47,881 nucleotides of DNA from a bacterium (GTDB lineage Bacteria; Desulfobacterota; Deferrisomatia; Deferrisomatales; BM512): contig SCTA01000025.1 of assembly GCA_004322275.1 (NCBI GenBank), positions 1 to 47,881 on the forward strand. The letters run 5' to 3'. The position numbers and the translations under genes were made by a program. Below the pieces are notes generated by a model. The model was not told the origin of the DNA. It did no database searches and saw nothing but the letters and a program-made list of their open reading frames with translations. This document shows positions 39,580-42,164 of this stretch, piece by piece; the first letter of the stretch is position 1; every line of letters starts with the position of its first letter.

Positions 39580-40434
39580 ATGGGTACGCAAAATCTAAGG
39601 ATTATCGAGCAGTTGGCCGCGATGGAGTTTGCCGTCGGCAGGCTTTACAGGACGTACGCGGAGAAGTTTCCCGAAGAGCGCTCCCTCTGGGAGGGGCTGG
39701 CCGAGGAGGAGGAGCAGCACCATCAGTGGGCGAATACCCTCCTCGAATCGGCAAAGGTCGGGAAGGTAAAGGTCAGGGAGGACGCAGGCGTCAGCGCGCA
39801 GATGATCGCTCAGGCGATAAGGGAGGTCGAAGGCCACACGTCGGAGGCCAAAGCCGGCTCCGTATCCCTTCGCGGCGCCCTGATGATCGCCTACTCGCTG
39901 GAAACTTCGCTGATCGACGGCAAGGCGTTTTCCCTGCTGGAAAGCCCTTCTTTCGGCAAGAACCTTTCGGTCTGCGAGGAACTGGCGAGCGCCACCTCAA
40001 CCCACGCCCTGCGGCTAAAGATGCGCATCGAGGACGAATTCGGCTCCCTGGAATCCGCGCCGCCGTTTTATGACGTTCTGGCTCAGGACAAAAAGCCGAA
40101 GGAAGAGTACGTTGTCGCCTTCTGCGGCCTTCTTTGCTCCCTTTGCCGCAAGTACAAGGATAAGAAATGCCCCGGCTGCGCCGAAAACGAAAAGGCGAGT
40201 TGGTGCAAGGTGCGCCTGTGCTGCCTCGGCAACGGCTACAAGACCTGCGCCGAGTGCGAAAAATTCGCCGATCCCAGGGAGTGCCGGGATTTTGACAACT
40301 TCATCGCCCGCGCCTTCGGGATGCTCTTTAATTCCGACCGCGCCGAGTGCATAAGGCAGATAAAGAGGATAGGGCTGAAGGAGCACGCGAAGAAGTTGAC
40401 CGAATCGGGGAATATGACGATTCCGCGCCGTTAG
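39580..40434 (+). CDS. Ferritin-like domain fused to Cys-rich DUF3795-like domain
   Basis: 284 aa. The N-terminal ~155 residues form a rubrerythrin/ferritin-like helical bundle: AAMEFAVGRLYRTYAEKF, then EEEEQHHQWANTLL (residues 42-55), then SLETSLIDG. A possible di-iron set is present, but not every ligand is certain. The C-terminal part (from about 183) has FCGLLCSLCRKYKDKKCPGC, WCKVRLCCL, CAECEKF and ECRDFDNF, matching DUF3795, a Cys-rich domain common in anaerobes. It is likely an iron- or metal-sensing or redox protein. The start follows GAGTTGCGGGA and no operon partner is evident. Confidence 0.8.
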   Translation: MGTQNLRIIEQLAAMEFAVGRLYRTYAEKFPEERSLWEGLAEEEEQHHQWANTLLESAKVGKVKVREDAGVSAQMIAQAIREVEGHTSEAKAGSVSLRGALMIAYSLETSLIDGKAFSLLESPSFGKNLSVCEELASATSTHALRLKMRIEDEFGSLESAPPFYDVLAQDKKPKEEYVVAFCGLLCSLCRKYKDKKCPGCAENEKASWCKVRLCCLGNGYKTCAECEKFADPRECRDFDNFIARAFGMLFNSDRAECIRQIKRIGLKEHAKKLTESGNMTIPRR

Positions 40435-40690: not shown

Positions 40691-40779
40691 TGCGAAGCAC
40701 ACAAAAGTCACTGGTTTCCCGCCTTCGCGGGAATGACGGGGTTAAGGGTCGAGCCCCGCCCTACACACTTTTGTAAATC

Positions 40780-40808
40780 TTGTAATGATGAATCGAAGGG
40801 TATATATT
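40780..40808 (+). promoter_or_regulatory. Possible promoter of the DAHP synthase leader
   Basis: TTGTAA (40780-40785), 17-base spacer, TATATT (40803-40808). This would place the transcript start near 40815, almost at the leader-peptide ATG, so either the leader is leaderless or the real promoter lies slightly upstream. Confidence 0.4.
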
Positions 40809-40817
40809 TCACCAACG

Positions 40818-40904
40818 ATGAAAACTTATTCCCGCTTTTATTTTTCCGGCTGGTTCTTTTTTGGGGGCTTCTTTACGAAGTCTGCCCGGCCGGCGGAGGT
40901 TTGA
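40818..40904 (+). CDS. Aromatic leader peptide upstream of DAHP synthase
   Basis: A 28-codon frame. Between codons 4 and 19 it contains eight Phe, two Tyr and one Trp (MKTYSRFYFSGWFFFGG, then FF), and ends TKSARPAEV with TGA at 40902-40904. An in-frame ATG at 40788 would add ten residues. This density of aromatic codons is the signature of amino-acid attenuation leaders such as the pheA leader. The weak point is the lack of an obvious Shine-Dalgarno next to either ATG. Confidence 0.65.
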   Translation: MKTYSRFYFSGWFFFGGFFTKSARPAEV

Positions 40905-40980
40905 GCGGGAAAAACCGATAACAAACCACAAAACAACGGCCACGGGCGGACGCGAAAGCAAAAGCCGGTGGCCGTTTTTT
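40884..40980 (+). promoter_or_regulatory. Transcription attenuator of DAHP synthase (antiterminator and terminator)
   Basis: Terminator: AACGGCCAC (40935-40943) pairs with GTGGCCGTT (40968-40976), with an inner GGC/GCC and then six T. Competing stem: GCCCGGCC (40884-40891, within leader codons 23-25) can pair with GGCC-ac-GGGC (40938-40947), which contains most of the terminator's left arm. A ribosome stalled on the Phe codons leaves 40884-40891 free and favours antitermination. One that reaches the stop codon covers it and lets the terminator form. Confidence 0.7.
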
Positions 40981-41024
40981 ATTTTGCCGGTTTTGTTTGC
41001 GCGCCCCCCAAAAAAGGAGAAAAG

Positions 41025-42164
41025 ATGATAGTAATACTCAAAAACCAGCTCAAAAAGGGGTCGCCGGAATTAAAGCAGCTTGAAGGGGTCGCCGCCCGCT
41101 ACCCCGGACTCACCCTCAGCACCCACAACGTCAAGGGCGCGATAGAGACCATAAGCGAGGTCTACGTCTTCGGGCCGACCTTGCAGGTGCCCACCGCTCC
41201 CTTCGAGGAACTTCCCTTCGTCCAGAAGGTGGTGAGGGTGAGCTCGAAGTACAGGATTATCGGGAGCCACGAGGGGCAGGTGGACGCGGTGGGATTCGAG
41301 TACAAGGGCCTTAAGTTCCATCAGGATTCCTTCCACGTTTTCGCGGGCCTTTGCGCCGTCGATACCCGTCAGCACGTCGAGATGATGATGAAGGCGCTCC
41401 GGGACGCGGGTCTCGATACTACCCGCATGGGCGCCTACAAGCCCCGGACTTCGCCCTACGAGTTCCAGGGCCACGGCAAGGAGTGCCTCCCCTACGTCTT
41501 CGAGCTCGCCGGTAAATACAAGATAAAGGCGATAGCGATGGAGGTCACCCACGAATCCCAGCTGGAGGAGATAAGGGATGCTCTTCGCAGCGCGGGCGAC
41601 CCTACCGGGGTCATCGTCCAGATAGGGACCAGAAACGCCCAGAACTTCGAGCTTTTAAAGCACGTCGGAAGGCAGACGGAGTTTCCCGTCCTCTTCAAGC
41701 GCGGGATGGGGATAACCCTGGAGGAATCCCTCAACGCCTGCGAGTACATCGCCAGCAACGGCAATTCCCGCATCATCTTCTGCCTGCGCGGGATGAAGAC
41801 GAACCTGGGCGACCCGCACCGGAACCTCGTCGATTTCGCCCACGTCCCCGTGGTGAAAAGGCTGACCCGCCTGCCGGTCTGCATCGACCCTTCCCACTCG
41901 GTGGGCAAGAAGGTTCTGGCTCCCGACGGACTGCTGGACATCCAGCACGCGGGGGCGCAGGGCATAATCGCCGGGGCCAACATGCTCATCGTCGATTTCC
42001 ATCCCCGCCCCGAGGCCGCCCTCTGTGACGGCCCTCAGGCGCTTCTCCTGAAAGAGCTGGAGTTCTTCCTTGAGGACGTGAACATCTGCCGCGACGCCTA
42101 CGAAAAGCGCAAGACGGCCGCCTCCCGCTTCGCCCGGTCTTCGGGCAAGTGCGAGTGCAAGTAA
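41025..42164 (+). CDS. aroF: 3-deoxy-7-phosphoheptulonate (DAHP) synthase, type I-beta with N-terminal regulatory domain
   Basis: 379 aa from the ATG at 41025, behind AAAAGGAGAAAAG. Residues 1-70 form the ferredoxin-like regulatory domain of type I-beta enzymes (MIVILKNQLKKG start). The catalytic barrel has AYKPRTSPYEFQGHG (near residue 142), CLRGMKT and CIDPSHSVGKK. It condenses PEP with erythrose-4-phosphate, the first step to chorismate. In relatives the N-terminal domain binds Tyr or Phe for feedback inhibition, so this gene seems controlled both by attenuation and by allostery. The symbol is the one commonly used for the family. Confidence 0.93.
   Translation: MIVILKNQLKKGSPELKQLEGVAARYPGLTLSTHNVKGAIETISEVYVFGPTLQVPTAPFEELPFVQKVVRVSSKYRIIGSHEGQVDAVGFEYKGLKFHQDSFHVFAGLCAVDTRQHVEMMMKALRDAGLDTTRMGAYKPRTSPYEFQGHGKECLPYVFELAGKYKIKAIAMEVTHESQLEEIRDALRSAGDPTGVIVQIGTRNAQNFELLKHVGRQTEFPVLFKRGMGITLEESLNACEYIASNGNSRIIFCLRGMKTNLGDPHRNLVDFAHVPVVKRLTRLPVCIDPSHSVGKKVLAPDGLLDIQHAGAQGIIAGANMLIVDFHPRPEAALCDGPQALLLKELEFFLEDVNICRDAYEKRKTAASRFARSSGKCECK

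Follow-up and report, generated by a model that had tools for sequence, protein, structure and literature searches.

What controls the expression of the DAHP synthase gene encoded towards the end of this 47,881-nucleotide stretch of DNA (the window), and does the short aromatic-rich open reading frame (ORF) that precedes it take part in that control? The window belongs to a genome of 2.88 Mb in 45 contigs (G000) from the phylum Thermodesulfobacteriota; the nearest named relatives of this genome are metagenome-assembled genomes (MAGs) filed under Deltaproteobacteria or Deferrisomatales. The region ahead of the gene very probably acts as a ribosome-mediated transcription attenuator of the trp/pheA type, a reading that draws, at the level of sequence, on the ORF itself, its codon enrichment, the alternative pairings, their conservation and covariation, and the matching genes found downstream. 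The features are the following:

40780..40808, + strand: predicted sigma-70-type promoter, TTGTAA-N17-TATATT (consensus scan)
40818..40904, + strand: leader peptide ORF of 28 codons, MKTYSRFYFSGWFFFGGFFTKSARPAEV followed by a stop (orthologous leaders in six further genomes)
40827..40874, + strand: putative regulatory codons Tyr4, Phe7, Tyr8, Phe9, Trp12, Phe13-15 and Phe18-19
40829..40911, + strand: region 1:2 hairpin (protector/pause), formed from the leader coding region, predicted by minimum free energy (MFE) folding
40880..40892, + strand: region 2, 5' strand of the antiterminator, within the leader ORF
40935..40951, + strand: region 3, shared strand with region 2 (antiterminator) or region 4 (terminator) as partner
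40935..40985, + strand: intrinsic terminator (regions 3:4) with U tract
41016..41019, + strand: GGAG, Shine-Dalgarno sequence of the DAHP synthase gene, as read from the sequence
41025..42164, + strand: type I-beta DAHP synthase (aroF-like) with an N-terminal ferredoxin-like domain and a catalytic barrel

The 28-codon ORF proposed in the earlier note is present at 40818-40904. Ten of the sixteen codons at positions 4 to 19 are aromatic, namely seven Phe, two Tyr and one Trp, so that the Tyr and Trp counts given before stand and the count of eight Phe is one too high. Within the 47.9 kb it is the sole ORF of 8 to 45 codons with at least eight aromatics per 12 residues, and 30 dinucleotide-shuffled versions of the full window contain none equally rich. 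If aromatic residues occurred as often as in the DAHP synthase, an ORF of 28 codons would have ten or more of them with a probability of about 2e-5. A longer leader starting in frame at 40785 or 40788 was considered and rejected, as the start codons of the relatives align with 40818.

The promoter scan yielded one site against a mean of 0.1 in shuffles and no other sigma-70-like candidate. Its position implies a transcript that would start about 3-4 nt 5' of the leader ATG, i.e. a near-leaderless one. A well-placed Shine-Dalgarno sequence was not found upstream of this ATG in the window, and the doubt expressed earlier about the ribosome-binding site is thereby justified for the window genome; inspection of the aligned leaders by eye reveals an AGGA, GGAGAGG or GGAAGG 5' of the leader in most relatives, that is, a Shine-Dalgarno-like sequence. 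The site may be unclear here because the promoter would start the transcript some 3 nt before the ATG. For ilvBNC of Corynebacterium glutamicum, the title of reference 42 in PMC4046766 reports that the leader peptide is made without a ribosome-binding site. Just 5' of the promoter lies CCCGCCTTCGCGGGAATGACGG (40712-40745), which resembles a short palindromic dispersed repeat, and the gene further upstream (39580-40434) encodes a weak rubrerythrin-like region fused to a cysteine-rich DUF3795 region.

The leader RNA is more stable than its shuffles (z -2.8 for the MFE) and forms the large hairpin in the coding region and the terminator in this fold. In the terminator, 40935-40943 pair with 40968-40976 and 40945-40947 with 40964-40966, followed by the U tract, in agreement with the terminator previously placed at 40935-40980. 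The antiterminator consists of 40880-40887 paired with 40944-40951 and of 40888-40892 paired with 40937-40941; a competing stem that takes up part of the leader coding region had been noticed correctly and proves longer than was claimed (40880-40892 versus 40884-40891). A ribosome positioned on an aromatic codon leaves the antiterminator as the predicted fold, and one at the stop codon leaves the terminator alone; it should be kept in mind that such folds are static and assume a ribosome footprint.

These structures suggest how the element would work. The ribosome translating the leader would report the supply of charged Phe-tRNA, and also that of Tyr- and Trp-tRNA. Stalling on the aromatic codons (40827-40874) would disrupt the 1:2 hairpin, leaving region 2 free to pair with region 3, so that the terminator is blocked and the DAHP synthase gene is transcribed. 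A ribosome that reaches the stop codon would instead cover region 2, upon which the terminator (40935-40985) would form and transcription end. The transcription start, the translation of the ORF, the stalling and the termination or antitermination in vivo are steps that we infer.

The downstream gene codes for a protein that matches PF00793 (4.5e-44), with PF18152 just under its cut-off. Its AlphaFold model has a mean pLDDT of 84 and aligns with the Thermotoga maritima enzyme (1rzm) over 358 alignment columns (TM 0.71/0.79), with the ferredoxin-like domain within the aligned length; together with the PF00793 match this agrees with the class, type I-beta, that had been named before, and the N-terminal domain may be the allosteric one mentioned there. 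The start at a GTG inside the terminator, as given in an automatic ORF list, was rejected since the orthologues align from 41025. The combination of attenuation with feedback inhibition is ordinary, as exemplified by pheA and trpE of E. coli.

Comparison of the orthologous leaders had been proposed before as a check, and its outcome supports the attenuator reading. An orthologue of the DAHP synthase with at least 75% identity is encoded in 8 of the 12 genomes of the order, and all seven with readable upstream DNA keep an aromatic-rich leader and the hairpins, the alignment of the seven showing compensatory changes, where it must be added that several of these genomes are closely related. All seven also fold as required for both the stalled and the stop position of the ribosome, and a 1:2 hairpin similar to that of the window is predicted in the other six. 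In the alignment of the seven sequences, made with MAFFT and thus without structure information, 90% of the antiterminator cells are paired, with three double-changed pairs (slid control 25-43%), and 96% of the terminator cells, with two double-changed pairs. At columns 138, 200 and 223, four sequences have C-G-C where G002 and G004 have A-U-A, which implies that region 3 changed jointly with its two competing partners; the window sequence has a G-G mismatch at the terminator pair of columns 200 and 223. The compensatory changes, the conservation within the order and the stall and stop folds all support the ribosome stalling that the earlier note had put forward.

No convincing leader was found at the relatives of this DAHP synthase outside the order (57-70% identity), and no such leader at the other DAHP synthase copies of the order. 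Likewise, no aromatic leader was found at the pheA of the window genome. A second leader was observed elsewhere in that genome: a Trp-rich ORF, MSDQRHVNSNWLWWTWR, lies upstream of trpE-trpG-trpD (L131, contig 37, minus strand, reverse-complement position 471), and the trp operon thus seems to be attenuated as well.

The element had been described as a single case, and in this respect the picture has widened considerably. A second subfamily of I-beta DAHP synthases in the same phylum (35-42% identical) has an aromatic-rich ORF plus terminator in 19 of 59 upstream regions, against none in antisense and none in 590 shuffles. When 297 genomes of the phylum were searched with a covariance model built only from the seven order members (R1), 56 of them contained a match, and the better matches mostly span the model from end to end. 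Fifty of the R1 matches were then aligned to build a further model (R2); it has matches in 211 of 395 genomes of Thermodesulfobacteriota and in 139 of 246 genera, about 45 of the matched genomes having also supplied its training set. The E-values of the models are rough because of a short calibration. In 38 comparison genomes, with 76 candidates scored in each, R2 found no match, an empty answer that by itself proves little; these genomes were reached via DAHP synthase loci and their titles name almost entirely other groups (Acidobacteria, Myxococcales, Acidithiobacillus, Betaproteobacteria and others), a few reading just Deltaproteobacteria or Candidatus Binatia.

In the alignment of the 50 matches, 95% of the antiterminator cells are paired, with four double-changed pairs, this stem being absent from the model structure; for the terminator, to which the alignment was fitted, these numbers are 94% and nine. 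The matches have a strongly conserved core, GUCUGCCC ... GGCCAUGGGCAGAC ... GCCCAUGGCC, as is partly to be expected since they were selected by similarity to the model. In the loci that were opened, the strand pairing with the terminator arm lies in the final part of an ORF with many cognate codons. Model matches on the opposite strand of the window are explained by the self-complementary terminator, and the weak matches L255-L257 were set aside because no aromatic gene lies downstream. Judged by these sequence matches, the window element represents a large RNA family, and this member of it matches no family in Rfam 15. Common ancestry of all leaders is likely in view of the shared core.

Which genes does the element precede? 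Among 85 non-redundant matches outside the seven order members, 81 are followed by a gene of the aromatic pathway or by one for an amino-acid binding protein, the family assignments having been confirmed by NCBIfam for representatives only. The genes are those of type I-beta DAHP synthase of the second subfamily (47/85), ADH synthase (TIGR01949, the archaeal-type entry; 14/85), phenylacetate-CoA ligase (8/85), ABC substrate-binding proteins (5/85), type I-alpha DAHP synthase (4/85), a shikimate kinase-like protein recognised from sequence (2/85) and, as a partial match, trpE (1/85). In the remaining 4/85 the downstream gene is unclear or missing. L280 is a match without a clear adjacent gene. 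The ABC binding proteins presumably carry aromatic amino acids.

The codon mix of the leader follows the target: it is nearly all Phe before phenylacetate-CoA ligase (on average 8.2 Phe, 0.6 Tyr and 0.5 Trp) and a mixture of Phe, Tyr and Trp before the pathway-entry enzymes (4.9 Phe, 3.5 Tyr and 1.0 Trp for the second-subfamily DAHP synthases). The Phe-dominated leaders before the ligase are those of L218, L219, L223, L237, L249, L278, L292 and L301. At two phenylacetate-CoA ligase loci the next gene is ACT-domain-like, and one of these also has an amino-acid-type ABC transporter. L283 and L304 have Tyr-rich leaders (GYSYYGY and GYYYYGY) before ABC substrate-binding proteins, hinting at Tyr-specific versions of the element.

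Could the locus be explained otherwise? It is very unlikely that the ribosome is arrested by the nascent leader peptide sensing a free aromatic metabolite, in the manner of TnaC or SpeFL and with the conserved C-terminal A..EV before the stop as the arrest motif, instead of stalling on the codons for want of charged tRNA. The leader does end in EV or DV just ahead of the stop in all seven order members, as such a motif would; beyond the order, however, the C-terminus varies widely whereas the aromatic codons stay, and the conserved GGAGGU lies in the predicted 1:2 hairpin, so that a constraint on the RNA can account for its conservation. Moreover, the codon type tracks the target pathway, and a ribosome arrested on the last leader codons would mask region 2, which favours termination.

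A switch controlled by a metabolite-binding riboswitch, a T-box or an RNA-binding protein instead of by translation of the ORF deserves even less credence, although the terminator and antiterminator pairings by themselves leave the sensor unspecified. Comparison of the window element with Rfam 15, including Phe_leader, Trp_leader and T-box, gave no family above the gathering threshold and chance-level matches only at a relaxed threshold, and the pairing strand sits at the end of an ORF with cognate codons whose residue types shift with the target gene. Phe codons are T-rich and so are, locally, the surroundings of the leader, yet the possibility that a T-rich stretch is by chance read as Phe codons beside an ordinary terminator has practically vanished: the shuffles contain no such ORF, seven genomes show compensatory changes and the arrangement recurs phylum-wide before aromatic genes, so that the comparative data refute it. 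Ribosome-mediated attenuation thus stands as the preferred reading.

The attenuator resembles those of E. coli pheA (pheL) and trp (trpL) in having a short ORF with regulatory codons, a mutually exclusive antiterminator and terminator and a biosynthetic gene downstream, and differs from them in its target, a DAHP synthase. R2 matches pheL weakly (15.8 bits, E 0.037 in 73 kb) and end to end, and does not match E. coli trpL. An attenuator on a type I-beta DAHP synthase with an allosteric domain had been called less familiar, yet attenuators on DAHP synthases have precedents in the literature. At aroR-aroF of C. glutamicum (Neshat et al. 2014, via PMC11802643; PMC4046766), a leader peptide with Phe and Tyr precedes a DAHP synthase gene that is subject to ribosome-mediated attenuation; going by that description, the leader of this actinobacterium is Phe-Tyr-Phe, whereas that of the window has ten aromatics including Trp. 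The uORFC-13-1 motif before aroF of Acholeplasma, a member of another phylum, is likewise similar by description, with a predicted uORF containing at least one Phe codon and a terminator ahead of a DAHP synthase (PMC8632094). Within Thermodesulfobacteriota, the Merino database has a single prediction, a putative attenuator ahead of aroA'-aroB' in Desulfovibrio vulgaris (table 7 of PMC1173090, 2005); it shares one target, the archaeal-type pathway entry, and the table entry describes neither a leader peptide nor a family. Searchable full texts, which leave out most subscription papers, gave no further reports of attenuation for Desulfovibrio, Geobacter or deltaproteobacteria. The proposed mechanism is textbook attenuation, and the RNA family, looked for in Rfam by way of the window element, was found neither there nor in the searchable papers; what is added to the single case is one attenuator design that, phylum-wide, heads different entry routes of aromatic biosynthesis with codons fitted to the target.

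The reading that we consider reasonably probable is that one ancestral attenuator RNA was kept on aromatic-pathway control across Thermodesulfobacteriota, while the downstream gene was exchanged and the codon mix retuned for each target, the targets being the two I-beta DAHP synthase subfamilies, I-alpha DAHP synthase, ADH synthase, shikimate kinase, phenylacetate-CoA ligase and binding proteins. In the order of the window, the element precedes an I-beta subfamily whose relatives outside the order are without it.

The element offers a testable mechanism by which the synthesis of aromatic amino acids may be controlled in a phylum whose members are mostly anaerobic and hard to grow; hardly any published work on such control there came to light. 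Its covariance model could form the basis of an entry in Rfam. With a single RNA design and target-matched codons, the leader would serve to predict regulons and the roles of substrates; the Phe-dominated leaders before phenylacetate-CoA ligase, for instance, suggest a role of this enzyme in the supply of phenylalanine in these cases.
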